In this document: piece after piece, positions 11,903 through 29,300 of the stretch
Position numbering within the stretch: the first letter of the stretch is position 1
Layout: the number at the start of each line of letters is the position of its first letter
Assembly (NCBI RefSeq): GCF_000758665.1
Contig: NZ_CP009285.1
Span: 868,001-932,000, forward strand
Origin: Paenibacillus borealis
GTDB lineage: Bacteria > Bacillota > Bacilli > Paenibacillales > Paenibacillaceae
Direction: 5' to 3'
Length of the DNA stretch: 64,000 nucleotides
Notes under the pieces: generated by a model
What the model was told of the DNA's origin: nothing
The model's input: the letters and a program-made list of their open reading frames with translations, nothing else
Databases searched by the model: none
Made by a program: the position numbers and the translations under genes

Positions 11903-14092
11903 ATGATCAAACAACTACGAAGCTGGTGGAAAGATACAGAGATATCTAACCTAATCGGCCGCAAAAAAGTGGATTTTTCCATCTTTCGTGATGGCACTCA
12001 TATTCCAGTTGAATTTCGTCCGGATTTCCTGGAAGCTAATCAAGGTCAACAGCCTAACCTGGGTGAAGGAATTAAGGTTAAGCTCATTCACGAAGATCGA
12101 GGCTATGAAGCCACACTATTTAAAATTGATCAAGCATCCGCTAGTCGGGAAGCTCTTCAAATTCTCTATAACGGAAATCAAACATTGAAGGAGTTGTTAA
12201 TTGAAGCCTTCAAGCATTCCTATTCCTACATTATGCAAGAGAGAACGAATCAACTAGCAGATGATGCGAAGAGACCTCAGGTTGTTGTTCCTGAAGATCA
12301 AGCGGAATACATAGATTTCTTTGCGACAGGAGTTCCTTTTGAATACCGTTTAGAGTTCATAACGTATCAGCCGAAGCCAAATGTATGGTGGGTGAATCAG
12401 GGAACCACCATTCAAGCGGAGAAGGAAGCGGGGATTCTGTGGGCACCTCTACTGAATACTCAAGGCCGTAAGCTATATCACTGGGAGACAATGAAGGAGG
12501 TTAAAGAAGGAGATATCATCCTTCATTACTCCAATAAGGCTATTCGCTATGTTAGTCAGGTTACAGATGCGGCAGTCGAAGCACCGAAACCAGGCTCTAT
12601 GGCTAATACGGGTTGGCAAGAGGAAGGAAGACTGGTTCGCACCAATTATGTAGAACTCATTCCGTCTATTGTGCTGCAACAGTTCAATCAGCAAATTATG
12701 CAACTGAATATAACTCAAGGACCGATCCATACTGGAGGGGGAGTGAATCAAGGGTATTTGTTCCGCTTTTCAAGACAGGGGCTTCAAGTGCTTCAGTCAC
12801 TCACGACAGAAGTGAATTGGCCTGATTTTACTATTCTAGAGCAAGATGAGGTTGCCTCCAGTATGGAGAGCTTGCGTGAGGTGATTCCTATTCTACCACC
12901 ATCCGATTCTAGCATTCCAACATTCCTCCACCAAATCCAATCCCACATCCGCCGCCAAGGCTTCTTTTTCCCTGAGCACCTAATTGAGAACTTCTACCTC
13001 TCGCTGAAGGCTAAGCCTTTTGTCATTCTGGCGGGTATATCAGGTACAGGGAAGACACGACTGGTGAAGCTGTTTGCGGAGGCGCTGGGGGCGACGCGGG
13101 ATAATGGGCAGTATACCTTGATTCCGGTGCGGCCGGATTGGAGTGATCCTGCGGATCTGCTGGGGTATAAGGATCTGTCGGGCAGGTTCCAGGCGGGGCC
13201 GATCACGCAGGTGTTCGTGGAGGCGCGGCAGCCGGAGAATCGGCATCAGCCTTATTTTATCTGCCTGGATGAGATGAATCTGGCCCGGGTGGAGCATTAT
13301 TTCAGTGATCTGTTAAGTGTGCTGGAGACGCAGGAGTGGCGGGAGAGTGAGATTCAGACGCAGGAGCTGATCTCGCGTGCCTTGCTGGGGACACCTAAGG
13401 ATCGGGAGACCTATGGCGGCCTGGGCATCCCGGAGAATGTGTTCCTGATCGGGACGGTGAATATGGACGAGACCACGCATCCTTTTAGCAAAAAAGTTCT
13501 CGACCGTGCAAGCACCCTAGAGTTCAATTACATTAATCTGCAGCAATATCCGCAAGGGGCTGAGCAGGACGCGGATGATCCCGCTGATCTTAATGACCTG
13601 AATCATCTCTTCCTCCGTTCCGATTATCTGCAGCTGGTGGATGCCTATGATACTCATCAAGAGCTCGTTGTGCGGACAACAGAGAGACTGGTTCAGATTA
13701 ATACGCTGCTGGAGGATATTCATGCTCATGTGGGCTTCCGGGTGCGGGATGCGATTTGCTTCTATATGATCTATAACGAACGTTATGGCCTGATGGATGA
13801 GGAAGAGGCGTTCGACTGGCAGCTGCTGCAAAAGATTCTGCCGCGTATCCAAGGAAGTCATTCCTCGGTGCGCCGGGTTCTGCTGGGCCTGATGAAGGTT
13901 GCGATAGGTAGCGGTGCCGGCATTGCGGTTAATGTTCAAGAACTCATGGACGATGATGCTTCGCCGCTCTATCTGAGATGGGCTGCCGGGCAGAATCCGC
14001 CTGGGGTCAAGCATCCGCAAAGTGCCCGTAAATTGGCTTATATGCTGAGGAGGCTGGAGGAAGATGGATTCACCTCATACTGGCTCTCTTAA
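11903..14092 (+). CDS. McrB-like AAA+ NTPase with EVE-like recognition domain
   Basis: A 729-residue protein. Residues about 158-255 look like an EVE/YTH-type modified-base reader: VWWVNQGTTIQAEKEAG, ILWAPLL, W-E-T-M-K-E-V-K-E-G-D-I-I-L-H-Y and IRYVSQVTDA follow the order of that domain. The AAA+ part has Walker A GISGTGKT at 378-385, Walker B ICLDEMNLARVEHYFSDLL with D456-E457, and GTVNMDETTH starting at 517. Unlike the first McrB-like protein, this one has a recognisable reader domain. The DNA is AT-rich up to roughly 12950-13050 and distinctly GC-rich after it, so the recognition half and motor half have different histories. The downstream nuclease gene overlaps by 29 bases. Confidence 0.88.
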   Translation: MIKQLRSWWKDTEISNLIGRKKVDFSIFRDGTHIPVEFRPDFLEANQGQQPNLGEGIKVKLIHEDRGYEATLFKIDQASASREALQILYNGNQTLKELLIEAFKHSYSYIMQERTNQLADDAKRPQVVVPEDQAEYIDFFATGVPFEYRLEFITYQPKPNVWWVNQGTTIQAEKEAGILWAPLLNTQGRKLYHWETMKEVKEGDIILHYSNKAIRYVSQVTDAAVEAPKPGSMANTGWQEEGRLVRTNYVELIPSIVLQQFNQQIMQLNITQGPIHTGGGVNQGYLFRFSRQGLQVLQSLTTEVNWPDFTILEQDEVASSMESLREVIPILPPSDSSIPTFLHQIQSHIRRQGFFFPEHLIENFYLSLKAKPFVILAGISGTGKTRLVKLFAEALGATRDNGQYTLIPVRPDWSDPADLLGYKDLSGRFQAGPITQVFVEARQPENRHQPYFICLDEMNLARVEHYFSDLLSVLETQEWRESEIQTQELISRALLGTPKDRETYGGLGIPENVFLIGTVNMDETTHPFSKKVLDRASTLEFNYINLQQYPQGAEQDADDPADLNDLNHLFLRSDYLQLVDAYDTHQELVVRTTERLVQINTLLEDIHAHVGFRVRDAICFYMIYNERYGLMDEEEAFDWQLLQKILPRIQGSHSSVRRVLLGLMKVAIGSGAGIAVNVQELMDDDASPLYLRWAAGQNPPGVKHPQSARKLAYMLRRLEEDGFTSYWLS

Positions 14093-16478
14093 TCAGGCGG
14101 TGGAATTGCTCCGTATCGAGACGGAGCTTTTTACGCTTTATGTGCAGGGGCGGCCCTATCATCCTACGGTGGAGACGTTGCAGCTTCATCGCTCCCCGGA
14201 GCAGGAGTGGGTGAATGCTCAGCTTGGAATTACATGCGCGCAGCGGCTTGGGAAAGTGCAGATTAAGGTGTTCTCGCCTGAAGCCTATGGGCTGATCGAC
14301 TGGCAGCCGGGGGAGTCGTCCTTTCCTTGCTTTTATGAGACGCAGCCGTATGAACTGGTGATTCAGAACAAGACGGCGGCCAAGCTTACTTTCTATCATG
14401 AGAATGTGCTGCTGCGGCAGGCGGTTAAGCCTCTGGGCGACTCGATTCTTGCAGGTGTGCTGAACTTCGGGAATGAGGTGGGGCTGACGGAGTGGGAGAT
14501 TCGGAGTGAGGGGCAGACGGTGCTGCGGGTGGAGATGGAGATCTATCCCTCGAAGATGGATTACAAGCTGGATTACCAGAACCTGCTGAATGAAGTGAAT
14601 GAGCAGATCTATAATCTGGCCTTCGATTTCTTGCGCCGGACCTACCAGTTAACGGGACTGCGGGAGACGCAGCATCAGAGCTTGACGGAGTTTTTCACGA
14701 TCCTACAGCATGTGTTCGGGCAGCTTCTGGATGCCGTTGAGCGGATTAACAAGAACCCTAATGTTGCGCTGCTTCAGGACCGCCGTCTGGTGGATGCGAA
14801 CCGGGTCAAAAAAGCCGGAAGAGAGAACATCCGTGAGCTCGCGAAGCATCCTGAACGACTAAGGGAAGACCCAAACCATGGATTCATCACCATTGGCAAC
14901 CGGAGTTACGCAGCCACGCACTTAATCGAGACGCGCAAACGACTTGCCTATGATACGAACGAGAACCGGTTCATCCGCTGGATGCTGGAACGGGTTCATC
15001 GGAAGCTGAAGGAGCTCAAGATTCACTGGAAGAAGACAAGCCGGACCCCAGATCCTGTGCTGATCAAAAGGCTGGATACGATGCTGACGCAAATCGAGCG
15101 CGTGCTTAAAGTGGATTTCCTGCGTGAGGCCGGAGTGCTGAAGCAGATGTCTGTTACGCTGGTACTGCAGATGGCGCCGGGATACCGTGAGGTCTACCGC
15201 TGTTATCTCATGCTGCTCAAAGGCTTGTCGATCCAGACTGACCTGTTCCGCCTGTCCATGAAGGATGTCGCGCAGCTCTATGAATATTGGTGCTTCCTGA
15301 AGCTGAATCAGCTGCTGGGGCAGAAGTATAAGCTGGTGAAGCAGGATGTGATTAGGGTGAACCGGAACGGGATTTTTGTGACGCTGGACCGCTCGCAGAG
15401 CGCGAAGATGGTCTATGAGAACCCGGTGAACGGGGAGCAATTCATCCTCTTTTATAATGCGATTCCTGATTCGGATAAGACCCCGACACTGAGCCAGCGT
15501 CCGGATAATGTACTCACCTTGAAGAAGAAGGATGCGGGTCAGATCAAGGAGTACAAGTATGTTTTCGACGCTAAATACCGCTTGAATCCTGCTTATGAAG
15601 ATACGCCTTACCAAAGGAAGTATAGACAACCTGGGCCGGAAGAGGACGACATCAATACGATGCACCGTTACCGGGACGCAATTGTGTATCAGGAGAAGGG
15701 CTCCGGGGAATATGAGCGAAGCATGTTTGGGGCGTATGTGCTATTTCCGTATCCGGATGAGGAGCGGTATAAGAGCCACCATTTCTACCAAAGCATTGAG
15801 CTGCTGAACATTGGCGCCTTGCCGTTCCTGCCGAATTCCACAAGTCTGGTGGAGCAATTCTTAGCTGAAATTATTCAGGATAGTCCGGAAAAAGCTTATG
15901 AACGCTCAACTCGTCCGCGCGGTACGAAGGAATATTACGTCAATCAGCTTGCGGGCAAAAATGTGCTGGTCGGCTCTGTCCGGGGGCCGGAGCAGGTGAC
16001 GGTGGCGGTGCGGAAGGCTTTTTATCATATGCCGCTTAAGAATCTTGTCAGCCAGAAGCTCCTAACCCAGATCGAATACATTGCCATGTGCCAATCCCGA
16101 AAGAAGTTCATTGATCCCGCCAAAACAGGCATTCACTGGGTAGGGAAGGTAGCCGATTGGAAGGTGCTGCGGCGTAAGGAGATTAAGGAAGTCCCTTGTC
16201 GGCCGGGTACCGAGGAGGAGCTGTATGTACGCTTCACGGTGGAGGAATGGAAGAGCTTAGCCGTTCCTATTACGCTAGGGGGCCAAGGGATCTACACAGT
16301 GCTCTATACTAGCAAGTACATTCTGGACCGGGCCCTGGAGCTTGCCGAGCTCCGTCTGGAAACGGAGGATGCGCTGCGCGAATGGCGCGAGAAGCGCCGC
16401 AAGGGTAAAGTTAAGGTGAAGCTGGATCATGAGGAGTATGTGGATTTGGGTAGGGTTGTGGAGGTTCGGAATATATAG
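14064..16478 (+). CDS. McrC-like DUF2357/PD-(D/E)XK nuclease subunit, long form
   Basis: An 804-residue protein, much longer than its counterpart at 8085. It has a DUF2357 region (YKLDYQNLLNEVNEQIYNLA, then RLAYDTNENRFIRWML), a YEYWCFLKL motif, and a nuclease core with RPDN (D481) and VFDAKYR (D502, K504). A C-terminal region of about 170 residues after the nuclease core contains EYIAMCQSRKKF, GIHWVGKVADW and LYVRFTVEEWKSLAVPI; I read it as an additional nucleic-acid-binding or regulatory module. The GC-rich composition matches the motor half of the upstream gene, so the two probably travelled together. It should act as the cutting subunit of the EVE-McrB-like motor. Confidence 0.85.
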   Translation: MDSPHTGSLNQAVELLRIETELFTLYVQGRPYHPTVETLQLHRSPEQEWVNAQLGITCAQRLGKVQIKVFSPEAYGLIDWQPGESSFPCFYETQPYELVIQNKTAAKLTFYHENVLLRQAVKPLGDSILAGVLNFGNEVGLTEWEIRSEGQTVLRVEMEIYPSKMDYKLDYQNLLNEVNEQIYNLAFDFLRRTYQLTGLRETQHQSLTEFFTILQHVFGQLLDAVERINKNPNVALLQDRRLVDANRVKKAGRENIRELAKHPERLREDPNHGFITIGNRSYAATHLIETRKRLAYDTNENRFIRWMLERVHRKLKELKIHWKKTSRTPDPVLIKRLDTMLTQIERVLKVDFLREAGVLKQMSVTLVLQMAPGYREVYRCYLMLLKGLSIQTDLFRLSMKDVAQLYEYWCFLKLNQLLGQKYKLVKQDVIRVNRNGIFVTLDRSQSAKMVYENPVNGEQFILFYNAIPDSDKTPTLSQRPDNVLTLKKKDAGQIKEYKYVFDAKYRLNPAYEDTPYQRKYRQPGPEEDDINTMHRYRDAIVYQEKGSGEYERSMFGAYVLFPYPDEERYKSHHFYQSIELLNIGALPFLPNSTSLVEQFLAEIIQDSPEKAYERSTRPRGTKEYYVNQLAGKNVLVGSVRGPEQVTVAVRKAFYHMPLKNLVSQKLLTQIEYIAMCQSRKKFIDPAKTGIHWVGKVADWKVLRRKEIKEVPCRPGTEEELYVRFTVEEWKSLAVPITLGGQGIYTVLYTSKYILDRALELAELRLETEDALREWREKRRKGKVKVKLDHEEYVDLGRVVEVRNI

Positions 16479-16519
16479 GGGAGTAAAGGATGCGTAATAG
16501 TAAGTGAAATAGAAAACGC

Positions 16520-16552
16520 AGCGGTACAGAGTTTATCTGTATCGCTTTTTTT
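16520..16552 (+). terminator. Terminator after the second McrBC-like operon
   Basis: AGCGGTACAGA (16520-16530) pairs with TCTGTATCGCT (16536-16546, one G-T pair) around GTTTA, followed by a run of T. Confidence 0.85.
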
Positions 16553-16724
16553 GGTGTACAACGATGAAGATTTAGTGAGATCTATTACAAATATTCCTAT
16601 TCTAGGTATACTTAATGGCAGAGCTCTTAGGGAGCAGCCTTGTTTACAAAGCTGGATTACTGTGTGTTCTAAAGCGAACTAGCTTTTTACGATGGAGATC
16701 AAATATATATTTCAGGAGTCTGAT

Positions 16725-19682
16725 ATGAACAGAGAAGCAGAAAGTGTTACAAAGTATTTCAGAAGTGCTGTGGCAGCCCAGGCAAATACAGGCTTGGATT
16801 TTAAAAACGATACCTTTTTTATTATTGAGCCCTCTCAATTGTTGGAGGGAAGAATTCATAGTGAGGTGTGCGAGAAGGTCTTTGTTGAAGCTAATAAGGA
16901 TTCCAATGATGAGGGTTACAAGCCTAAAAAAACGTCTATTAACGTTATTGCTTGTATTAAAACAGTAAAGACAATATATGAAGCAAGTGCCAAAAAACAA
17001 GATGATATTGACGAGTTGACAGGACTGTTTTTTGTACCTGCAAAATTAAACGATAACGGCTACCTTTCATTCGACTCGGATAATAAAAAGCTGCCATGGT
17101 TTCCTAGAGAGTACTTGCAACCGATGATAGAACCTAAACTAGCTATTGGTAGTGCAATTGATGTTGATTCTTATATAAGCGACCATGTTGATCAAGTACA
17201 GTTGATTAAAACATGGGACGATTATCTCTCATTTGTTATAGAGTTTTATGAAAAGATAACGAGTAGTAAATTTGAAGATAGCAGCATTACTAATGAAGAA
17301 GAGCATACTCAGATTGAACTGGAAAAGAATATGTATCTTTTTATTGATAGCACAGTTAATGCTACATTCAATATTATGAGGCTGTATAATCACATCCTTG
17401 AAGATTCACAGGCTAAGCCCCTATATGATACCTTCATTTCAACATCAGAAGCGATCTCGGAGCCGTTAATCTCTCATTCGATCTCTAATATGCAGCTTCA
17501 TGCTGGACAAATGGGCGGAGAGTACCCGCTGTCTCCTTCTCAGAGAGAAGCCATTAATCATTACAATAATATGAATAACGGTGAAGTGCTGGCTGTCAAC
17601 GGGCCTCCGGGAACTGGGAAAACCACGCTCTTACAATCTATAGTTGCTGATACATATGTGAAAAGAGCAATTTCAGAAGACAAGCCGCCTCTGATTGTAG
17701 CAACATCAACCAATAATCAAGCTGTTACGAACATTATTGCCTCCTTTGGCAATATTAAAAAAATGTTTGATTCGAGTCTTGAAGAACGTTGGATAGAAGG
17801 TGTTCATAGCTTTGCTACTTATTTTCCTTCTGGAATGAAAGTGAAGGAGGCGGCACAAGGCTATCAAATCACCAATAATAAAGGCGAATACTTTTTATCA
17901 GATATCGAGACGGAAACGAATATTATTAATTCCAAAGCTAAAATAATAGATCAATGCGGGAAACTGTTTAGTAAAGAATTCAATACAGTGGGGGAGTGCC
18001 GTATTGCTCTTCACCAAGAGTTATTGTTCTTGGAGGAAAAGAAAAAAAATCTACTTGCTCTATGTGAGGAATCTAAACAATTCCATAATCCTGATTTCCC
18101 CATAAATCTACAGTTAGATAAGCTTAAGGAAAAGATAGATGGTTTCGAAGAGCAAATTCATAGATATCAAGATAGAGTATCTGGGTGGGAAGCGACATAT
18201 AGCAAAGTACCTTACTTGGTTAGACTTTTCTCGAAAATAATTAGGAAGAATCTCAAAAGAATTCAAACGGAATTCAGGCTGTTTATTTCCACGGATGAGC
18301 TTACGTTTCTTAATGAATACATGACTGTTGAAGACATCAAGGAAATTTACAGTCTGAAAATTGTCGAACTCCGGAGTTCCTCTGTATCCTTACAAAAAGA
18401 TGCACAATTCATTGAGGATTGGATTAAGAGGTATGACGAACAATTGAAAATACTGAGAGAGCACGGGGTCACCCTCCATGATCACGAATCTGATATGTAT
18501 AATATTTCCATGGATACAATCAATGAAACAATTGATAAGAAAATTCGTTACCGTGAGTTTTGGTTGGCGGTTCATTACTTCGAATGTAGGTGGGCAAGCG
18601 GCGAAGATGAACTAAAAGAAAAGCAAAAAGGTACGAATTATGAAAATGTACTTGTTAAATTTTATAACAGACTCTCTTTGATCACTCCTTGCTTAGTAAT
18701 GACTTTCCACACGCTTCCCAAGCAGTTCTGGGCTTATACAGGTCAGAAGAATATATTCCTCTACAACTTTATTGATTTGTTAATTGTAGATGAAGCTGGA
18801 CAAGTATCACCGGAAATTGCCGCTGGCGCATTCGCACTCGCAAAGAAAGCGGTTGTCGTTGGGGATGTTTATCAGATTGAACCTGTATGGAGTGTTAACA
18901 AGTCGTTGGATAATACATTGGCTCTGACTAGCGGGTTAATCCAATCGGTTGACGAATACAGTAATTTAGAAGAGCTTGGTTTGACCAGCTTCGGATCAAG
19001 TGTAATGAGGGTTGCCTCAAAAAGCTGTAAATATGAAAAATATGATGAAAAGGGTTTGTTTCTATCTGAACATCGGCGTTGTTATGATGAAATAATAGAT
19101 TATTGCAATAAGCTGGTGTATAGAGGAAACCTCATTCCTATGAGAGGAAGAGGAGCTAACCGTAAGAATCGTCTGCAAGCTTGGCCGCAAATGGGATTTC
19201 ATCAAATTGAAAGCGAAAAGTCAAATAAACAAGGAGCCAGTAGGTATAACCATACGGAGGCAGCTGAAATCGCTGAATGGCTGCATCAACATTTTGATAC
19301 AATCCGTAGTGCATACCCGGAAGATGCGGAGAATAATCTGATTGGAATAATAACACCGTTTAAATCTCAAGTAGGATATATAAAAGCAGCATTAAAGAGA
19401 AAAATGCCTCAATTATGGAAAAAAATAAGTGTGGGCACTGTGCATGCATTTCAGGGGGGTGAACGGAATATAATCATACTTTCAACAGTATATGGTGTGA
19501 ATGATGGATGCTATTTTATTGATGCTAATAAGAGCCTCATGAACGTAGCCGTATCGCGGGCCAAAGATCATTTCTTTGTATTTGGGGATACTCGTTGCTT
19601 AAAAAATAATCAAAATAGCGCTAGCGGACTGCTTAAATCGGTTATGCAGGGAACAGTGAACGCTAAGGAAGTGAAAATATAA
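16725..19682 (+). CDS. Upf1-like SF1 helicase / AAA_11-AAA_12 ATPase
   Basis: ATG 16725 is favoured because CAGGAG lies 7 bases upstream; an in-frame ATG at 16692 (11 codons earlier) has no good site. Numbered from 16692, the protein has Walker A GPPGTGKTT at 304-312, a long coiled-coil-like insertion of about 330 residues (e.g. LEEKKKNLLALCEE, LDKLKEKIDGFEEQIHRYQDR), Walker B LLIVDEAGQVSPE with D700-E701, VVVGDVYQIEPV, LSEHRR, GTVHAFQGGERNIIILS and MNVAVSRAKDHFFVFG. These are SF1 helicase motifs I, II, III, IV-V and VI in order. Such stand-alone helicases are common in defence islands. It is AT-rich, unlike its left neighbour, and flanked by terminators on both sides, so it is an independent acquisition. 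Confidence 0.85.
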   Translation: MNREAESVTKYFRSAVAAQANTGLDFKNDTFFIIEPSQLLEGRIHSEVCEKVFVEANKDSNDEGYKPKKTSINVIACIKTVKTIYEASAKKQDDIDELTGLFFVPAKLNDNGYLSFDSDNKKLPWFPREYLQPMIEPKLAIGSAIDVDSYISDHVDQVQLIKTWDDYLSFVIEFYEKITSSKFEDSSITNEEEHTQIELEKNMYLFIDSTVNATFNIMRLYNHILEDSQAKPLYDTFISTSEAISEPLISHSISNMQLHAGQMGGEYPLSPSQREAINHYNNMNNGEVLAVNGPPGTGKTTLLQSIVADTYVKRAISEDKPPLIVATSTNNQAVTNIIASFGNIKKMFDSSLEERWIEGVHSFATYFPSGMKVKEAAQGYQITNNKGEYFLSDIETETNIINSKAKIIDQCGKLFSKEFNTVGECRIALHQELLFLEEKKKNLLALCEESKQFHNPDFPINLQLDKLKEKIDGFEEQIHRYQDRVSGWEATYSKVPYLVRLFSKIIRKNLKRIQTEFRLFISTDELTFLNEYMTVEDIKEIYSLKIVELRSSSVSLQKDAQFIEDWIKRYDEQLKILREHGVTLHDHESDMYNISMDTINETIDKKIRYREFWLAVHYFECRWASGEDELKEKQKGTNYENVLVKFYNRLSLITPCLVMTFHTLPKQFWAYTGQKNIFLYNFIDLLIVDEAGQVSPEIAAGAFALAKKAVVVGDVYQIEPVWSVNKSLDNTLALTSGLIQSVDEYSNLEELGLTSFGSSVMRVASKSCKYEKYDEKGLFLSEHRRCYDEIIDYCNKLVYRGNLIPMRGRGANRKNRLQAWPQMGFHQIESEKSNKQGASRYNHTEAAEIAEWLHQHFDTIRSAYPEDAENNLIGIITPFKSQVGYIKAALKRKMPQLWKKISVGTVHAFQGGERNIIILSTVYGVNDGCYFIDANKSLMNVAVSRAKDHFFVFGDTRCLKNNQNSASGLLKSVMQGTVNAKEVKI

Positions 19683-19714
19683 AATTCTACATCTGGAAAT
19701 AAACTGAATCCTCC

Positions 19715-19761
19715 AAAAAAGCTCAAACGCAGGCCTCTCACACCTGCCTTTGAGCTTTTTT
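19715..19761. terminator. Bidirectional terminator after the SF1 helicase
   Basis: A long stem: AAAAAAGCTCAAA-C-GCAGG (19715-19733) against CCTGC-C-TTTGAGCTTTTTT (19743-19761), one mismatch. Its A and T flanks would work on both strands. The AAGCTCAA core recurs in the terminators at 57192 and 58599. Confidence 0.85.
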
Positions 19762-19882
19762 CTATGCATCCCAAACTGCCCTCTGGAAATTTATTCTTCC
19801 GTCGTAATACTTTCGCCATGTTCGTTCAGCATTATTTCAGCGATGATAGAACCTGTAAGATGATAACGCCGAGCGCGTTCAT

Positions 19883-20060
19883 CATACATCCGGTTCTTAT
19901 CCGGGCGGGCGTAACGAGGCGGGGATCTCAGGTGATCCCGCAGTGCCGGCATGTATGTTACGGTATCCTGTACGGACCGTTTCGGTAAGAGTCACCTTTG
20001 GGGTTCGATTCCCCAATCGCTTTGGGAGCGATTCTGGTACAGTACTCGATTTCCATCGAG
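19883..20060 (+). ncRNA. Candidate structured RNA with a canonical tRNA T-arm
   Basis: No credible reading frame crosses this stretch, yet it folds densely. A long stem CATACATCCGG (19883-19893) pairs with CCGG-C-ATGTATG (19946-19957, one bulge) and encloses GCGGGGATC/GATCCCGC (19919-19927 and 19934-19941). Then CTGTAC (19968-19973) pairs with GTACAG (20037-20042) and closes a junction with three arms: ACCG-TTT-CGGT (19976-19986), TGGGG-TTCGATT-CCCCA (19999-20015), and ATCGC-TTTGGGA-GCGAT (20016-20032). The middle arm has the 5-bp stem and 7-base TTCRANN loop of a tRNA T-arm. CTCGAT-TTCC-ATCGAG (20046-20059, within the next bases) adds a last hairpin. The strand is assumed from the T-arm. Position in front of a slipin gene suggests a Y-RNA-like (YrlA) RNA or a leader element; that is inference. 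Confidence 0.5.
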
Positions 20061-20346
20061 CGACTATTGAAGCACAATCTGAGTAAGGAAACCAATGGAC
20101 AGAATCTCTGGCGGCTGGTATAGCGCACTGTGGTAGGGCTTTGCAATCCGTGGATACCGATAGTGGGCAGCTGGGGAGGCTGTGGCATGGATGAAAGGGA
20201 ACGAAGGCGGCTGAAGTATGGGTTAGCCTCGGACCTCAAGTAGTCCTCCCGGACCTCCTGGCAGGGCCGCCTGTCTCAAACGTGATTCCGCCTGAGCTGC
20301 AGCGGGATTCTGTCATCCATTGGTCAAACTTGAAGGGGGCATACAT
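20061..20346 (+). other. Gene-free leader between structured RNA and slipin gene
   Basis: No frame of useful length survives here. Pairing potential continues: GGTAT (20117-20121) with ATACC (20154-20158), and GGCGGC (20206-20211) with GCCGCC (20266-20271). GAAGGGGG at about 20332-20339 is the slipin ribosome binding site. The segment may be the 3' part of the same RNA or a long 5' untranslated region. Confidence 0.4.
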
Positions 20347-21450
20347 ATGTTGAAGCAAATAACGATTCAAGCGGACCAGCGCGGCCTGCTCTTTCATAAG
20401 GGAAGTTATGTGAAGCGGCTGCTACCGGGAACCTACCGTTACTTATCATGGTCGCAGCATACAGTGGCAGTACTGAATATTGCCAAACCGTTTGGCGTCG
20501 AGGGTAAAGACCTGCAGCTGTTCCTACAGGATGATGAACTCCTCCGGGAGCTCGATGTCGTACGTGTACAGGATCATGAGATTGTTCTGCACTATGAGGA
20601 TGGCCAATTCATGCAAGTGCTGAAGCCGGGTGTGTATGCTTATTGGAACCTCCTGAGAAAGCACACCTTCGTACATACGGATATCAGACAACCGGAACTA
20701 CCTGCCGGGATCGACCGCTCGATTATCTCGAAGCTCACTCCGTATGTGCAGTGCTGCGAAATCGCGAGTTACGAGCAGGGATTCCTGTTCTATGATCATA
20801 CGCTCAAGCGGGAGCTTACGCCTGGTAAGTATTATTTCTGGAAGGGACCGGTCTCGGTGCTGACGAAGACGGTCGATCTGAGACAGCAGCAGATGGATCT
20901 GGTTGGCCAGGAAATGATGACAGAAGACAAGGTCTCGCTGCGTCTAAACTTCGTATGCCAGTACACAATCGTAAGTCCGCACCGCGTTCTGGAGATGAAG
21001 GCTTTTGACGAGCAGATACACATCCAGCTACAGCTCCTGCTCCGGGAATATGTCGGAACGCTGAAATTGGACGATCTCCTGAGACGAAAAGAGGATGTCG
21101 CCACATTCATTCTGTCCCGTATCCAGGAGAAGGAAGAAGCGTTCGGGGTACGTTTCCTCGGGGCGGGGGTGAAGGATGTAATTCTGCCGGGGGAAATGAA
21201 AGACATCCTAAACACCGTTCTGCTCGCAGAAAAGAAGGCGCAGGCGAACCTGCTTACCCGCCGGGAAGAGACGGCTTCGACGCGCAGCCTGCTGAATACG
21301 GCGAAGCTGATGGATGAGAATCAGACCCTTTTCCGGCTGAAGGAGCTGGAATTCCTCGAGAAAATATGCGACAAAATCGGCTCTATCTCTGTAACCGGCG
21401 GTGGAGACCTCCTGGAGCGGTTAAGCTCGCTTATCGGTAGTAATAAGTAG
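20347..21450 (+). CDS. Slipin / SPFH (band 7) family protein
   Basis: Start ATG 20347 follows GAAGGGGG by 7 bases; the upstream TTG at 20320 has no site. The 367-residue protein has two slipin-type N-terminal repeats, ADQRGLLFHKGSYVKRLLPG and YEQGFLFYDHTLKRELTPG, then the SPFH core: MMTEDKVSLRLNFVCQYTI, LDDLLRRKEDVATFIL, FGVRFLGAGVKDVILPGEM, ending in a helical region with AEKKAQANLLTRREETASTRSLLNTAKL. There is no obvious transmembrane helix, unlike classic flotillins. Slipins of this repeat-bearing type are, to my recollection, found near RNA-repair genes (RtcB, TROVE/Ro and Y RNA); none of those proteins is in this window. A structured RNA candidate lies directly upstream and a terminator directly follows. 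Confidence 0.85.
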   Translation: MLKQITIQADQRGLLFHKGSYVKRLLPGTYRYLSWSQHTVAVLNIAKPFGVEGKDLQLFLQDDELLRELDVVRVQDHEIVLHYEDGQFMQVLKPGVYAYWNLLRKHTFVHTDIRQPELPAGIDRSIISKLTPYVQCCEIASYEQGFLFYDHTLKRELTPGKYYFWKGPVSVLTKTVDLRQQQMDLVGQEMMTEDKVSLRLNFVCQYTIVSPHRVLEMKAFDEQIHIQLQLLLREYVGTLKLDDLLRRKEDVATFILSRIQEKEEAFGVRFLGAGVKDVILPGEMKDILNTVLLAEKKAQANLLTRREETASTRSLLNTAKLMDENQTLFRLKELEFLEKICDKIGSISVTGGGDLLERLSSLIGSNK

Positions 21451-21475
21451 ATCGCCTTCTGGCGGTCTATTTTTA
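21448..21475 (+). terminator. Terminator overlapping the slipin stop codon
   Basis: TAGATCGCC (21448-21456, starting with the stop codon) pairs with GGCGGTCTA (21461-21469) around TTCT, followed by five T. The slipin gene is therefore transcribed separately from the next gene. Confidence 0.85.
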
Positions 21476-21587
21476 GTGCAGATAGAGAGAATTAAGCTTA
21501 GTCAAAGTTCCGGAAAACAGGTAATTATATAGAAGCTATAGAACTAAGCTATAGAGCCGATTAAGCCAAACCCGAGGAAGTGATCCC

Positions 21588-22382
21588 ATGGACAACAAAG
21601 CAAAGAAAATCCTGATGAACACCTTCTGGACCTCAGCCGGCTGGAAGAGCAGTCCTGCTGCCTTCACCGGTGAGGATTTCGACTATGCCAAAAGCAAAGG
21701 GTTGATGTTCGATCCTGTGACGATTACCCATGACGAGATTGTTTTGCGGCTGCATGAGCTGCATCAGACGATCACCAAGGAGCGGGTAGCGGCCGCGTTC
21801 CTGCACAGTCTGTCGACGAAGAAGGTTCATTTGCGGAGTGCCCTATCCAGCTGGGCCCAGACTTCCGCGCTACCTGTACATAATTATGAGCAGCGGAGTG
21901 TTGTACGGCCCAATTATAGCAGCTGCGGGGATTGTAACTTTTACAGATTAATGTCTGACCGGGAATTTATAAATAATGATCTGAATGTGCTGAATTTCGA
22001 ACGGGTTAAATGGGGCGGTATTCGTCTGAATTGGCTTTTATACTGCTGGATGGACCTTGAATTATTAAGTAAAGAAGAAGAGTTCGAGGTTACCGCCGAG
22101 GATACTGCCATACTCTCCGGGATGCTCGAAGCGATACGGGATTGTGCGGACCATGAGAGTGCTCGGATGCTGGAGAAGCGGTGGAAGGACGTGATTCCCT
22201 CCAGTAAGAATGAACGGGATGTGTTAATGGAGATCTGGGGCTATGCCGGATTGCTGGTACCGCGGGACACACCCCGGAAACGCAAAGGTGGGAGTCATGA
22301 TTTTAACTCTATGGCTGAGTGGCAGGGAGAAGACGGCTATTCTCAGGAGGCGGTAGAGTTGTATTTCGGCGCGTTTTTGTAG
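21588..22382 (+). CDS. Protein of unknown function
   Basis: A 264-residue protein with AGGAAG 7 bases before its ATG. I do not recognise a family. Visible features: a C-x-x-C pair (SCGDCNFY) near residue 112 that could bind metal, a W-rich core (KWGGIRLNWLLYCWMDLELL) and a basic linker (PRKRKGG) near residue 228, with no signal peptide or membrane helix. It lies 58 bases before the NADAR gene start on the same strand with no terminator between, so the two may form an operon. GC-rich composition is like the slipin and NADAR genes. A link to ADP-ribose or NAD chemistry is possible only by neighbourhood. Confidence 0.6.
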   Translation: MDNKAKKILMNTFWTSAGWKSSPAAFTGEDFDYAKSKGLMFDPVTITHDEIVLRLHELHQTITKERVAAAFLHSLSTKKVHLRSALSSWAQTSALPVHNYEQRSVVRPNYSSCGDCNFYRLMSDREFINNDLNVLNFERVKWGGIRLNWLLYCWMDLELLSKEEEFEVTAEDTAILSGMLEAIRDCADHESARMLEKRWKDVIPSSKNERDVLMEIWGYAGLLVPRDTPRKRKGGSHDFNSMAEWQGEDGYSQEAVELYFGAFL

Positions 22383-22440
22383 ATTTACTATGAACTTGAA
22401 TGACGGTTAGATGATATTAGGACAAGGAGGCACGCTCATT

Positions 22441-23184
22441 ATGAACACCCCGGAGCACATCCAGAAGATCCTCGAAGACAATAGAAGAAAGCTGCTAGCC
22501 CTCAATCCCGAAGATCGCTTTATACGCTTCTATGAAACGGATAAGCCTTACGGTTGTTTCTCTAATTTTGCGAAGTACCCCATAGTGTTAAAAAGCAAGG
22601 CGTGGGCAACCACGGAGCATTATTTTCAAGCGCAGAAGTTCGCAGGCACTGAGCATGAGGAAGAGGTCCGGCTCGCCGGAACGCCGATGGAGACAGCACG
22701 GTTGGGGCGGGACCGGAGTAAGCCGCTTCGTTCCGATTGGGAAGAATGCAAGGTTGAGGTTATGAGAGAAGCGCTGATGGCTAAGGTTGAGCAGCATCCC
22801 GCTATAAAGTCCATTCTTTTGTCGACAGGCGATTGTACCTTAGTTGAACATACCGCCAATGATGCCTACTGGGGAGACGGCGGTAACGGCCAAGGCGGCA
22901 ATATGCTGGGCAAGCTGCTGATGGAGATTCGGAACGGATTAGATGAATATGTGCCGGAATTCTTGCTGCCGCAGTGGATCGTGTATCCTGAAATTGAGCC
23001 GTTCAGCATTGGCTGGAGAATGGGGTATGGCGAAGATTACTTGATGCACTTATGGGAATGGAGAGAGCAGCAGTCGCCGGAGGCGCTGAAGGAGTATGAT
23101 GCGTACTTCACTCCGCCGGAGGAGTGGGCTGAGGCTGAAAGAATTCAAGAAGAGTATAGGACAAAGAATAAGGATCAGGACTGA
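22441..23184 (+). CDS. NADAR (YbiA-like) family N-glycosidase
   Basis: ATG 22441 has AAGGAGG 10 bases upstream and is preferred over 22411. The product has about 247 residues. NADAR signatures are clear: FYETDKPYGCFSNFA, WATTEHYFQAQKF, then NDAYWGDGGNGQGGNMLGKL. YbiA from E. coli removes the ribose phosphate from riboflavin intermediates, and other NADAR proteins remove ADP-ribose from guanine in nucleic acid, countering DarT-like toxins. The C-terminal ~70 residues (WIVYPEIEPFSIGWRMGYGEDY onward) extend beyond the domain and are unfamiliar. No ADP-ribosyltransferase toxin is nearby, so metabolic housekeeping is as likely as defence. Confidence 0.88.
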   Translation: MNTPEHIQKILEDNRRKLLALNPEDRFIRFYETDKPYGCFSNFAKYPIVLKSKAWATTEHYFQAQKFAGTEHEEEVRLAGTPMETARLGRDRSKPLRSDWEECKVEVMREALMAKVEQHPAIKSILLSTGDCTLVEHTANDAYWGDGGNGQGGNMLGKLLMEIRNGLDEYVPEFLLPQWIVYPEIEPFSIGWRMGYGEDYLMHLWEWREQQSPEALKEYDAYFTPPEEWAEAERIQEEYRTKNKDQD

Positions 23185-23273: not shown

Positions 23274-23311
23274 TTGATGTAGAAAAAATGAAAATAATGG
23301 AGGAAAAGGCA

Positions 23312-26300
23312 TTGAGATTTAAACGGATAATCGCCTTGTTGCTGGTGTTTGCTATGGTCATACCGACGGGCTTGATACATGCGGCAGATCTGGTATTGAA
23401 AGAGGATTTAAATATTATGAAGTATACTCCTGCTGGATTGAGAGACCTGGAGGAGACTATTGATGTTACGGATGAATCGTATGAGGCAGAGATAATTGTT
23501 ACCTTTGAGTACGGGGAGGCGTCTTATCCTCCAGATTATGTTCAATTATCCATTGCGGAAGAAAATCCGGTAGGCAAGCGGATTGTGGGCAATACACTGT
23601 TCGTTGATCAAGGAGCACCAGCTGGAACAATTACCATCAAAGCTGTATTGCCGGGGAATTATTACACTACTCATACTATTACTGTGAATTCAGGCGGGGG
23701 TACTCCGCAACCGGCGCAGCCAAGAATAACCCATACGCTGATGGATACAAGTGATCTTAATCATCTCATCATAAGTGCAACGGCACTGGATGACGGAATT
23801 CACAAATTACAGATAAGAACATTTTATAAGAATGCCTCTGGTATGGTAGGGGGGGACATTTCCAATCTGACCCAGGAAGGTAATAGTTCAGTATTTTCTG
23901 CAGACATTACCGAACAGGTCTCCAGTAAGATGAGAGATTCCAATGCCTATGAAATGACTTATTTCTTCACTATGTTAGATGAAAATGGGGGATTCCTGCA
24001 ATATCCCGAGGTTATTGATATGAACTCGTTGGAGGGGGCCCTGACGGTTAAGCTGGCTGAAGCCCCGGACAATGGATCGGGTGAGCCTGAGTTAGATAAA
24101 GCTGATTTGATTGCTAAGATTAATGAAGCGAAGGACTTATATTCATTCTCAGTTATCGGCAATGATATTGGAGAATATCCGGGTGAAGTGATGGATGCAT
24201 TTAATACAGCCATTGAAGCTGCATCCCGGGCTAAAGATACAGCTACAACCCAGACACAAATTGACGCTGCCTATCAAGATTTGATGGGTTCTATTACGTC
24301 ATTTAAGGCGGATGCCATCAAGGGAGCGAGTCGCTCGGACCTTATGGATAAATATGGAGAAGCAATTATTCTCTATCGGCAAACCTCAATAGGTGAGGGG
24401 GTTGGACAGTATCCGCTAGAAGCATTATATGCTTTAGAGGCGGCTGTAATGTCAGTAGACTACGTTCTAAACAACCCTACATCTACTCAGGAAGATTTTG
24501 ATAATGCCTACCAAAGTTTATCTTATGCGATAAAGGTATACCGTGCTGCACAGATCAAAGCAGGTGATACTGCGCTGCTCCAGATTAAAATTAATGAAGC
24601 TTGGGACCTTTTCATCGAGAGTAAAGTGGGCGATGAACCTGGGCAATTTTCTGAACAAGCATATTTGGCCTTCCTTGATGTTATTTCATTGGCTGAGGAA
24701 GCGATCTATTCTCCAAGAACGCAAAAGAAAATTGATGAGGCTTATATAGCTTTATCCAATGGAATGCAAGAATTCCTTGCTGCTAAAATTCCGGAGCCGG
24801 ATAAAACAGAGCTGCTTCAGGCGAAAATTAACGAAGCGCAGCTGTTATGGGACAATGCCGACGTGGGAACAAACGTAGGCCAATATCCAGCTGAGGCAAA
24901 GGACGCGTTAGAAACTGCTATTTATGCGGCTAATGAAGGATTGAACGCCTCCTCCACAGAAGCTGAGCTAGATGCCGCCTACCAAGCATTGAATGCCGCA
25001 ATCACAACTTTTAAAAATGCTGAAATTAAGCGGGGAGATACCACGGCACTCGGAGTTAAAATCCATGATGCTTGGTACCTTACGATTTCCAGTGAAGAAG
25101 GTAATGGATCAGGACAATATCCTTCTTCAGCATTCGATGATTTGCGAAATGCTATCTCTGCCGCAGAACAATGGGTGATTAACTCAGGAACTGAAGCGGA
25201 AATTGAAGAAGCTTACGAAGTTTTGGTGAACGCCATACAGAGTTTCCTGAATGCCGAAAATACCGGGCCTAATAAAGATGCACTCCAGGCTGCGATTGAG
25301 ACTGCCAAGGCATTTTTGAACAACAATGTTGTAGGTACCAAAGTTGGACAATATCCGGAAAATTCGAAGAACATCCTCCAAGATTCCATAGATGCTGCAT
25401 GGGAGACGTTAATCAACCTGATGTCTACACAAGTTGAAGTTGATCAAGCGTTAACTTCTGTGAATAAAGCATTGGCGGATTTTAAGGCGTCTGTCCTCGT
25501 ACAAGGAGATCAGCTATTCCTTCACGTAACCATCATTGATGCGAAAGAGCTCCTGGATAATAGTCCAGTAGGAGAGGGTGCTGGTCAATTCCCATCTGAT
25601 GCTATGCATGCACTTGAAGCAGCAATTGGTGTGGCGGAAACGGCAATCAGCGGACCGATGACGCAAGTCGAGCTTGATGAAGCGCGGCAAGCGCTGGAAA
25701 CAGCAGTCACGACCTTTAAAGCTGCAGAAATCAAGGCAGTAGATAAAACAGCGCTACAGGGAAAAATAGACGATGCGACATCTGCTTACAATATGAGCCG
25801 GGTTGGCACTGATTTTGGAGAATATCCGGCTGAAGCAAAAACGGCTCTCAAGGCAGCCATTGACGCTGCTAAAGTTCTGATCGACAAGACAGCAGCTTCG
25901 CAAGCTGAGATTGACGCGGCAACTCAAACACTAACTGCTGCAATTACAACCTTCTATGCTGCAGCGGTCGAAATGGGAGATTACCTTAAACTTCAAGAAA
26001 AAGTTATAGAAGCGCGATCCCTATATCGGGAAAGTCCACGAGGAGATGGGATCGGTGCATACCCAGATGCGGCATTTATTGACTTAGATGAAGCTATAGA
26101 GCTAGCTAATGAAATAGCGACCTATCTAGCCAGCCAAACCAAACTGGATAAGGCCCTCCAGGCATTATCGGATGCAATGGAGAAATTCGAAGAATCTGTT
26201 GTTAAGGCTGGAGACAATACAGCACTACAAGCCGCAATTACTGAGGCGAAAATCCTCCTCGAGGGAAGTAAAGAAGGAAGTGCTGTAGGAGAATATCCGC

Positions 26301-29300
26301 TAGAAGCCATGGACTTATTGCAATCCGCGATTACAGATGCAGAAAACTTGGCTAATGAAGAAGCTACTCAAGCAGCTATGGATGAGGCTATCCTAACTCT
26401 GAACAACGCAGTTGCAGCTTTTGAAGCTGCGGTGATCAAGGAAGGGAACAGCACAGAGCTCCAACTCAAAATTGAAGCAGCAAGAAATCTTTTGAGTTTT
26501 AGCGCAGAGGGTGATCGCCCTGGAGAGTATCCGTCAGAAGCCTTCGATGCTTTGGATAGGGCTATTGCAGATGCGGAGACTCTGATAGATATCCCTGGTA
26601 CACAACAGGAGATTGATGAGGCCTATCACGATTTGGTACAAGCAATCGAAGCATTCGAAAAGGCTAAGATTCAGGAAGGCGATTATATCCCGCTTCTAGC
26701 GGCGATAGCGGAGGCAACGACACTCTATAATACTAGCCCGGAGGGCCATGGTGCAGGACAATATTGGCCAGAAGTCAAAGCGTTGTTCATGACAGCCATT
26801 GAGGCGGCAAACGTAGTAGCAGGCGGGCCGTCTACTCAAGAAGAAATAGAGGAAGCACTTCAAAGACTTGCGGATGCGGTTGAAGATTTTCAGAAATCTG
26901 AAGTTCGTGCCGGGGACAGCACAAACCTTCAATCGGTCATTACGGAATTGAACACTCTTCTGGGCAACAGCAAAGAGGGCGATGACGCAGGAGAATATCC
27001 GGCAGGTTCCAAAGCGATTTTGCAGGCAGCGGTTACGGCAGTATCGAATGTGATCAGCGAACCGGCTACCCAGCAAGAGATTGATCAGGCTTATGAGGAA
27101 CTGGTAGATGCGGCAGATATTTTCATCGCTAAAAAAATTCCAGCGGGCAATAACTCGAAAGCTCTCGAAAAAATTCATGAGGTAGGCAGTCTTATGGAGG
27201 CCAGCAAAGCAGGAACCGGAGTTGGACAGTATCCGGCTGAAGCAATAGCAGCATTGGAGGCAGCATTTGATGCAGCGGTTATTGTAGTCGATAAACCATC
27301 TTCGCAAGTGAAGCTTGATGCTACTTACCAAGCCCTTGTAGACGCGGTCGATGTGTTTAAGAAGGCGCAGATACAGGCTGGCGACAGCGAAGACGCTGAT
27401 GCGGTAGTGAGCAGCGCAGAAACGCTGCTGAGAGACAGCGTTGTAGGCGAAGGCGTAGGTGAGTACCCGTTGACAGCCAAAACAACACTTGAGGCTGCGA
27501 TTGCAGCAGCGAAAGAAGTGTTTGAAAACCCGGCAACGCAAGCGCAGATTGATACAGCTAAAGCGGCGCTGGAAGCGGCAATTACCGCATTTGAAGCTGC
27601 GGTGAATAAAGAAGGCAGCAGTGAAGAAGCTGATGCGGTAGTGACCGGCGCAGAAACGTTGCTGAGAGACAGCATTGTAGGCGAAGGCTTAGGCGAATAT
27701 CCGCTGGCAGCCAAAACAACACTGGAAGCAGCGATTGCAGCAGCCAAAGAAGTGTTTGAACAACCAGCGACTCAGGCGCAGATTGATACAGCTAAAGCGG
27801 CGCTGGAAGCAGCAATCAGTACATTTGAAGCTGCGGTGAATAAAGAAGGTGGCAGCGAAGAGGCTGACGCGGTATTGAGCAGCGCAGAAACGCTGCTGAG
27901 AGACAGCGTTGTAGGCGAAGGTGTAGGTGAGTACCCGTTGACAGCCAAAACAACACTTGAGGCTGCGATTTCAGCAGCGAAAGAAGTGTTTGAAAACCCG
28001 GCAAAGCAAGCGCAGATTGATACAGCTAAAGCGGCGCTGGAAGCGGCAATTACCGCATTTGAAGCTGCAGTGAATAAAGAAGGCGGCAGCGAAGAAGCTG
28101 ATGCGGTAGTGAGCAGCGCAGAAACGCTGCTGAGCGACAGCGTTGTAGGCGAAGGCGTAGGCCAGTATCCATCCGAAGCAGTCGACGTGTTAAAAGCAGC
28201 CATTAAGGCAGCCAAGGAAGTGTTGGAACAACCAGCGACACAAGCGCAGATTGACGAAGCCAAAGCGGCGCTGGAAGCAGCAATCACTACATTTGAAGCT
28301 GCGGTGAATAAAGAAGGCAGCAGCGAAGAAGCTAATGCGGTAGTAAGCAGCGCGGAAACACTGCTGAGAGACAGTATCGTAGGTGAAGGTTTAGGTGAAT
28401 ACCCGCTGGCAGCCAAAACAGCACTGGAAGCTGCGATTGCAGCAGCTAAGAAAGTGCTGGAACAACCAGCGACACAAGCGCAGATTGACGAAGCCAAAGC
28501 AACGTTGGAAGCAGCAATCAGTACATTTGAAGCTGCGGTGAATAAAGAAGGCAGCAGCGAAGAGGCTGACGCAGTTGTGACCGAAGCAGAAGCACTGCTG
28601 GTCGATGTGCCAGTAGGCGAAGGCGTAGGCCAATATCCGTTAGAAGCAGTCGACGTGTTGAAAGCAGCCATTAAGGCAGCGAAAGAAGTGTTTGAACACC
28701 CAGCCACGCAAGCGCAGATTGACGAAGCCAAAGCAACGTTGGAAGCAGCAATTACCGCATTTGAAGCTGCGGTAAATAAAGAAGGCGACAGCGAAGAAGC
28801 TGGCGCAGTAGTGACCGAAGCAGAAGCATTGCTGGTCGACATTCCAGTAGGCGAAGGCGTAGGCCAATATCCGTCCGAAGCAGTCGACGTGTTGAAAGCA
28901 GCCATTAAGGCAGCCAAGGAAGTGTTTGAACATCCGGCAACACAAGCACAAATCGACGAAGCTAAAGCAACGTTGGAAGCAGCAATCAGTACATTTGAAG
29001 CTGCGGTAAATAAAGAAGGCGACAGCGAAGAAGCTGGCGCAGTAGTGACCGAAGCAGAAGCATTACTGGTCGATGTACCAGTAGGCGAAGGCGTAGGCCA
29101 ATATCCGTCAGAAGCAGTTGACGTGTTGAAGGCAGCCATTAAGGCAGCCAAGGAAGTGCTTGATCACCCGGCAACGCAAGCGCAGATCGATACAGCCAAA
29201 GTAACGTTGGAAGCGGCAATTACCGCATTTGAAGCTGCAGTAAATAAAGAAGGCGACAGCGAAGAAGCTGGCGCAACGGTAAACGAAGCACAAACGCTGC

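Follow-up and report, generated by a model that had tools for sequence, protein, structure and literature searches.

Upstream of a slipin gene of Paenibacillus borealis lies a conserved stretch of about 500 nt which is apparently a non-coding RNA, predicted to be transcribed, and which is built of three parts: a 5' domain, a permuted tRNA-like domain and a 3' domain. The arms of the central domain follow one another as in a tRNA that has been circularly permuted by opening it at the variable region. The RNA is linked to slipin, and slipin in turn to RNA repair. We favour, with modest confidence, a role of the RNA as a cofactor, or as a bait or decoy, of a slipin-based repair particle to which it is predicted to bind; it may serve the cell in detecting or repairing broken tRNAs. 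Many bacteria have RNA-repair operons, and to our knowledge no mechanism has been described that brings together the ligase, the nucleotidyltransferase and the damaged tRNA. The RNA is a concrete candidate scaffold or bait, for which there are a model of the structure, a clear protein partner and a putative promoter element. Moreover, a permuted tRNA-like domain embedded in a large RNA of bacteria would represent a novel form of tRNA mimicry that stays out of translation.

The window, i.e. the whole 64,000-nt stretch that was analysed, holds a gap of 664 bases (19683-20346) between a helicase gene ending at 19682 and the slipin gene, which encodes a Band_7 (SPFH) protein of 367 aa on the + strand (20347..21450; PF01145, E 2e-18). 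Indels in this gap relative to five close relatives are mostly of 1, 2, 23 or 24 nt, and it therefore looks non-coding, as an earlier reading made from the sequence alone had assumed. That sequence-only reading set the limits of a structured RNA at 19883-20346; structured RNA is indeed found there, but the conserved unit begins near 19804 and measures about 490-540 nt. The region 19804-20346 comprises a promoter-like element and the conserved structured RNA, which stops just 5' of the slipin ribosome-binding site (AAGGGGG, 20333..20339, + strand, recognised from the sequence). In eight relatives, slipin-upstream DNA is 74-89% identical to that of the window over 586-688 aligned columns. No family of Rfam 15 matches at gathering scores, and up to E 10 there are three chance-level matches (E 2 to 5). 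ARAGORN recognised neither an ordinary tRNA nor a tmRNA gene in the window or in the 22 other loci given to it. None of the titles and abstract openings covered by the literature search names this RNA, from which no absence from the literature is claimed.

An ordinary tRNA runs from the 5' acceptor strand through the D-arm, anticodon arm, variable region and T-arm to the 3' acceptor strand. The tRNA-like domain runs instead through T-arm, 3' acceptor strand, loop, 5' acceptor strand, D-arm and anticodon-like arm. On the + strand of the window these parts are the T-arm (19999..20015; stem UGGGG/CCCCA, loop UUCGAUU), an acceptor-like hairpin with its 3' strand first and sealed by a loop (20015..20033; AAUCGC-UUUGGGA-GCGAUU), a reduced D-arm in which the conserved GG is present (20034..20042; CUG-GUA-CAG) and an anticodon-like arm with a 6-nt loop (20045..20060; CUCGA-UUUCCA-UCGAG). 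Since the permuted order joins the 3' to the 5' strand by a short loop, the acceptor is a closed hairpin without CCA; its stem is 5-7 bp long, and no CCA end occurs in the sequence. The 5-bp T-arm with its TTCGATT loop had been read correctly from the letters, whereas the four-way junction drawn around it finds no support. The T-arm belongs to the permuted domain. Equally mistaken was the statement that acceptor and anticodon arms are lacking: both stand downstream of the T-arm and were missed because the parts are in permuted order.

Slipin orthologues are present in 158 of 392 genomes of the order, and the loci to which we refer as the named set are the best 80 of 155, nearly all from Paenibacillus. 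The genomes compared are related, hence non-independent, and the counts given below ignore descent. The 90 tRNA-like domains of one alignment were selected by a T-loop pattern in which the loop and the inner bases of the stem are prescribed. The T-loop conservation of this alignment (90/90) is thus built in, and the innermost T-arm pairs likewise belong to the selection pattern. A few of its rows entered via a strict pattern, by which part of the acceptor is prescribed as well. This alignment leaves out loci without the T-loop (L015, L063, L117, L132 and L141), and L015 and L021 had been left out of the first alignment. The 5' domain alignment omits the same five loci together with L113, L123 and L129, and the 3' domain alignment omits these eight plus L073 and L121. 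A further alignment of 22 rows, 21 of them distinct full-arm members in the D-arm count, was picked for full arms.

All three domains covary in 90-96 relatives, the outcome of the alignment of slipin upstream regions which had been proposed as a check on the initial reading. Over 15 pairs of the T-arm, acceptor and anticodon arms, 92.9% of positions in the 90 distinct tRNA-like sequences are paired, against 33-51% when the pairs are slid; double-change cells number 73 versus 18.8 in shuffles, and the count of further pair types beats the shuffles in all but 9 of 500. In the 22 full-arm members (19 pairs including the D-arm) covariation is 0.237 versus 0.099, and the further pair types measure did not beat the shuffles (374/500). 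The 5' domain (19892..19993, + strand) has a long helix, GGUUCUUAU/GUAAGAGUC, which closes a junction with two hairpins; its 40 pairs are formed at 91.3% in 96 sequences, with 314 double-change cells against 91 +/- 13 (maximum 119) in shuffles. The 3' domain (20091..20326, + strand), closed by the long-range helix ACCAAUGGACAGAAUC / GGGAUUCUGUCAUCCAUUGGU, has 50 pairs formed at 86.6% in 94 sequences and 615 double-change cells against 227 +/- 12 (maximum 259). The shuffle tests of both flanking domains use structures drawn from the same alignments, by which the test is favoured. Folded apart, each of the two closes on itself.

The support for the structure comes from these relatives and not from energy alone. 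The minimum free energy (MFE) of 19883-20346 is no better than that of shuffled sequences (z 0.13); for the 62-nt tRNA-like part by itself, z is -1.83 and 9 of 200 shuffles are equally good. In the window, the MFE fold of the domain gives the T-arm, the acceptor hairpin and the anticodon-like arm closed by one more pair, and leaves the D stretch (20034-20042) unpaired. Two other members folded singly, L111 and the distant L204, give exactly T-arm, acceptor hairpin, D-arm and anticodon arm.

Across relatives the individual arms are kept to different degrees. The T-loop motif occupies its expected site in 75 of the 80 named loci (the best 80 of 155), 49 by the strict and 26 by a looser pattern, and is absent from five of them, L063, L117, L129, L132 and L141. 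L063 is the closest relative in that set, its slipin being 99% identical to that of the window, yet it lacks the T-arm; the tRNA face is therefore not always kept. The outer pair of the T-arm stem covaries (GC 65, AU 11 and UA 9 of 90), and in the same 90 sequences the acceptor-like hairpin has double changes at four of its five pairs and the anticodon-like arm at all five. The GG of the D-arm falls in columns 49-56 in 89 of 90 sequences. Divergent relatives carry a full GCUC/GAGC D-arm and full cloverleaf arms, and many members have a reduced D-arm; in the 21 distinct full-arm members the D-arm pairs are 75% paired, these being partly misaligned. The anticodon-arm pattern is matched by 83 of 104 distinct sequences, with a loop of 7 nt in 64 of the 83. 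The triplet at the anticodon position varies among the matched sequences (UUC 23, UCC 15, UUU 12 or 13, with GAU, GUU, GGU and others few), and this variation in a kept 7-nt loop is read as selection for shape rather than decoding.

The tie to slipin emerges from the strict T-arm and acceptor pattern, which occurs in 51 of 392 genomes of the order and in none with a reversed control. Fifty of the 51 have slipin, from a total of 158 slipin genomes (Fisher p 3e-21), and in all 49 cases measured the pattern starts 298-475 nt upstream of slipin on the same strand. The distance is 334 nt in G035, where slipin (L020) has a large internal deletion. The sole strict-pattern genome without slipin is G302, which has none in its 3-kb locus (L149). 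The strict pattern recovers only 50 of the 158 slipin genomes; in the named set, variant T-arms and acceptors account for others. At a further locus (L015, in G039) a deletion fuses the 5' part of the RNA to the middle of slipin.

The slipin protein aligns with stomatin over residues 139-342 (E 2e-21). Its AF2 model (mean pLDDT 76, pTM 0.51) places beta-module repeats at residues 2-44, 69-112 and 134-175, followed by the SPFH domain and a helix; no transmembrane segment is predicted, the maximal mean hydropathy being 0.81. Repeat 1 against repeat 2 beats all 500 shuffles, 1 of 500 shuffles is as good for repeats 1 and 3, and 6 of 500 for repeats 2 and 3. The eukaryotic vault particle comprises MVP, vault RNA and TEP1 with TROVE. 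Vault protein is among the structural matches over nearly the whole slipin model (five rows, rmsd 8.9-10.5 A), matches which are suggestive but unspecific. Taken alone, the repeats resemble other SPFH proteins more closely than vault protein, and Foldseek returned nothing for them at E <= 0.001; given these results and the high rmsd, the vault parallel is an idea only.

The tie to RNA repair is seen in the genomes that carry slipin. Within the genus, 41 of the 43 genomes with slipin have RtcB, compared with 10 of the 35 that lack slipin (p 3e-10, descent ignored), a count that leaves out G028, where slipin is a remnant only. Three genomes (G358, G393 and G369) have RtcB only as fragments, and without these the figures are 38 of 43 and 10 of 35 (p 8e-8). 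A count by the strict pattern had given 32 of 34 versus 19 of 44 genomes, and the recount by slipin was made because nine pattern-less genomes carry slipin. The fetched flanks of the named loci (the best 80 of 155) contain RtcB in 32 cases, RlaP in 19, divergent WYL regulators in 28 and Hen1 in 7, leaving 48 of these 80 without RtcB in the fetched flank. Since all 21 genomes tested for RlaP have it, the presence of the gene as such is uninformative. Neither RtcB nor RlaP adjoins slipin in the window: in the same genome RlaP is at a distance of nearly 700 kb, and the nearest full-length RtcB lies 60 kb upstream, RtcB fragments being found at 55 kb.

A 5' element precedes the RNA, the 20-mer GTAATACTTTCGCCATGTTC (19804..19823, + strand), a probable promoter or operator of an RNA-repair regulon; a second block, AGCGATGATA, follows 15 bases after it (19839..19848, + strand), and the start of the RNA is probably within this block or immediately downstream of it. 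With at most one mismatch, the 20-mer has 31 matches in 20 of the 27 genomes searched, at most three in each, compared with two for a reversed control. A similar block containing AGCGA was found by eye in about 9 of 16 printed copies. The DNA following 16 copies was assigned to the slipin-RNA in 2 cases, a 457-aa gene in 2, Hen1 in 4, TROVE or a TROVE-like gene in 3, RlaP in 3 and a RING protein in 1, with none in 1. As judged by coordinates, the 457-aa gene is followed by RtcB in G000 and by a remnant of RtcB in G034. One of the Hen1 copies was tested (Hen1_N, E 1e-105), the others being assigned by likeness, and the three RlaP copies by likeness or coordinates. Among the TROVE copies, L196 matches at E 1e-18 and L181 belongs to G028, where TROVE was found; L192 is TROVE-like by likeness only, with no Pfam match and no TROVE found in that genome. 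By coordinates, 14 of the other 15 copies stand before the slipin-RNA, one of them being the deleted G039 locus, and one before the preceding RtcB (G057). At 16 loci RtcB is the immediate upstream neighbour of the RNA and the 5' element does not intervene; in 8 of these the element turns up some 2 kb upstream, ahead of RtcB. The 20-mer, seen in the window and in L173-L202, appears to mark an RNA-repair regulon of slipin-RNA, RtcB, RlaP, TROVE and Hen1, for whose control the divergent WYL regulators would be natural candidates. The 457-aa protein (L176:1638-3008), encoded behind a 20-mer near RtcB in the window's own genome, has no Pfam or NCBIfam match and is also found near 6 of the 80 slipin loci (best 80 of 155). 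At L096:4805-5390, between the 5' element and the RNA, an ORF of 151 aa, which we take to be DIP1984-like, is followed by a further tRNA-like stretch with a T-arm of its own; seven related loci have a T-arm motif in a comparable position.

Outside the order, slipin occurs in 7 of 398 Bacillota genomes, five of which were examined (L204-L208). A model of the permuted domain, R1, matches the window at 19999-20060 with 50.5 bits and L063 with 18.6. R1 is unspecific, all 398 Bacillota genomes searched having a match at E <= 0.1, and was used only to score known loci; its genome-wide matches are taken to be neighbouring tRNA genes. If so, two tRNA genes in tandem could be the origin of the permuted domain. 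L204, a distant Bacillota locus, has an RNA-like region upstream of slipin with a perfect permuted tRNA-like domain (83.1 bits, L204 being in the model). In L206 a T-arm and acceptor hairpin are visible by eye, and R1 matches only in part (11.5 bits). Upstream of slipin at L207:517-649, R1 finds two tandem tRNA-like copies (31.2 and 21.5 bits), of which the MFE fold gives the first T-arm and acceptor hairpin only; part of an RtcB gene lies upstream. L205 and L208 have no permuted tRNA-like domain by eye, and the R1 matches in L208 (26.5 and 22.6 bits) adjoin apparently ordinary tRNA genes. Among the relatives of G629 (1 of 21) and G489 (1 of 4), only the seeds were recovered, and there was no DNA match in plasmids, no slipin in phages and nothing in viral contigs.

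Burroughs and Aravind reportedly named, in 2016, 'a novel tRNA-like molecule' as cognate to SPFH/Band-7 in RNA-repair systems. A Band_7 protein, a tRNA-like RNA and RtcB and RlaP neighbours in relatives are common to that description and ours: the RNA stands next to a Band_7 gene, as in the 50 pattern genomes with slipin, and the ligase and RlaP accompany it at the level of the family (32 and 19 of the best 80 of 155 loci) and not beside the window's own slipin. The two are probably of the same kind. The suggestion that a Y-RNA-like or T-arm-bearing leader RNA without Ro protein would be new is therefore not entirely borne out, if that abstract means the same family; the permuted order, the anticodon arm, the large body and the common promoter element are parts that may be new. 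OLE RNA is likewise a large structured bacterial RNA tied to one protein; unlike the present RNA, it is in Rfam.

The Y-RNA-like character proposed by the sequence-only reading holds in so far as the RNA is a tRNA mimic linked to RtcB, RlaP and a repeat-bearing slipin. YrlA is a tRNA mimic encoded with RtcB-type RNA repair in rsr operons (PMC8394870, PMC7790460). It measures 90-150 nt, its tRNA-like domain resembles the D, T and acceptor arms, and a large stem that joins its ends tethers Rsr (PMC8394870). The slipin-linked RNA has the T, D and acceptor arms, the D-arm being reduced in the window; it differs in its size of about 500 nt, its additional anticodon-like arm, its slipin partner and its 5' and 3' domains, each of which, folded apart, closes on itself. 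That the RNA stands without Ro protein agrees with our results, TROVE being beside slipin in none of the 80 named loci (best 80 of 155; one query protein). A search of 21 genomes revealed TROVE in three (G031, G036 and G028) and not in that of the window, where, of the two genes proposed as a check, only RtcB was found. The TROVE genes of G031 and G028 carry the same 5' element, and a true YrlA-type Y RNA bound by Ro is nonetheless very improbable. Circularly permuted tRNA genes of algae and archaea encode the 3' half before the 5' half, as does the domain described here, and L111 and L204 show cloverleaf arms; however, a gene that matures into a working tRNA is very improbable, given the missing CCA, the sealed 5-7 bp acceptor stem, the unconserved anticodon, the D-arm reduced in many members and the embedding in a large covarying RNA. 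A decayed tRNA gene, which would have undone the initial proposal, or chance stems would accord with the energy of the whole stretch and with the loss of the T-arm in some relatives, but the strong covariation under shuffle and slide controls and the permuted domain of the distant L204 make either hardly credible.

The main rival, possible though doubtful, is a cis-acting leader of the slipin mRNA, whose tRNA-like domain would sense tRNA-handling proteins or anticodon nucleases and whose cleavage or binding would switch translation. It accords with the position of the RNA in cis, on the same strand and at the distances given above, with the closing of the 3' domain just before the slipin ribosome-binding site, and with a scan of 19600-21700 that finds no terminator-like site on the + strand, a scan which also misses the hairpin near 19720-19760. 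Against a leader, L121 carries roughly 150-200 extra nt between the 3' domain and the start codon, so that the spacing between RNA and slipin is not fixed; moreover, in size and tRNA face the RNA surpasses the leaders known to us. In the repair-particle reading, the RNA would be transcribed together with slipin from the RNA-repair promoter and form the RNA part of a slipin-organised particle, its 5' and 3' domains binding oligomeric slipin. The central domain would display T, D and anticodon arms beside an uncharged closed-loop acceptor end, which cannot be charged because the permuted wiring makes it a closed loop. Enzymes that act on tRNA (RtcB, RlaP, Hen1, modification enzymes) would dock on this tRNA face, or it would serve as bait for anticodon nucleases; the varying triplet argues against one fixed nuclease target. 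A more speculative version, which we put forward tentatively, makes the permuted, uncharged tRNA look-alike a reusable bait or sensor for tRNA-cutting toxins, carried by a soluble, vault-like slipin that would form a cage or ring, within an RNA-repair regulon (RtcB, RlaP, Hen1, Ro) that would be switched on via one common promoter element beside WYL regulators.

Directly upstream of the locus, at 11903-19682, an AAA-like protein (judged by eye), a DUF2357/PDDEXK_7 nuclease and an SF1 helicase form a restriction-like island. Downstream, a 264-aa protein without Pfam match (21588-22382), which lies 3' of slipin in most of the clade of the window, is followed in the window by a NADAR protein (22411-23184) and by a repetitive protein of 2471 aa (23288-30703).
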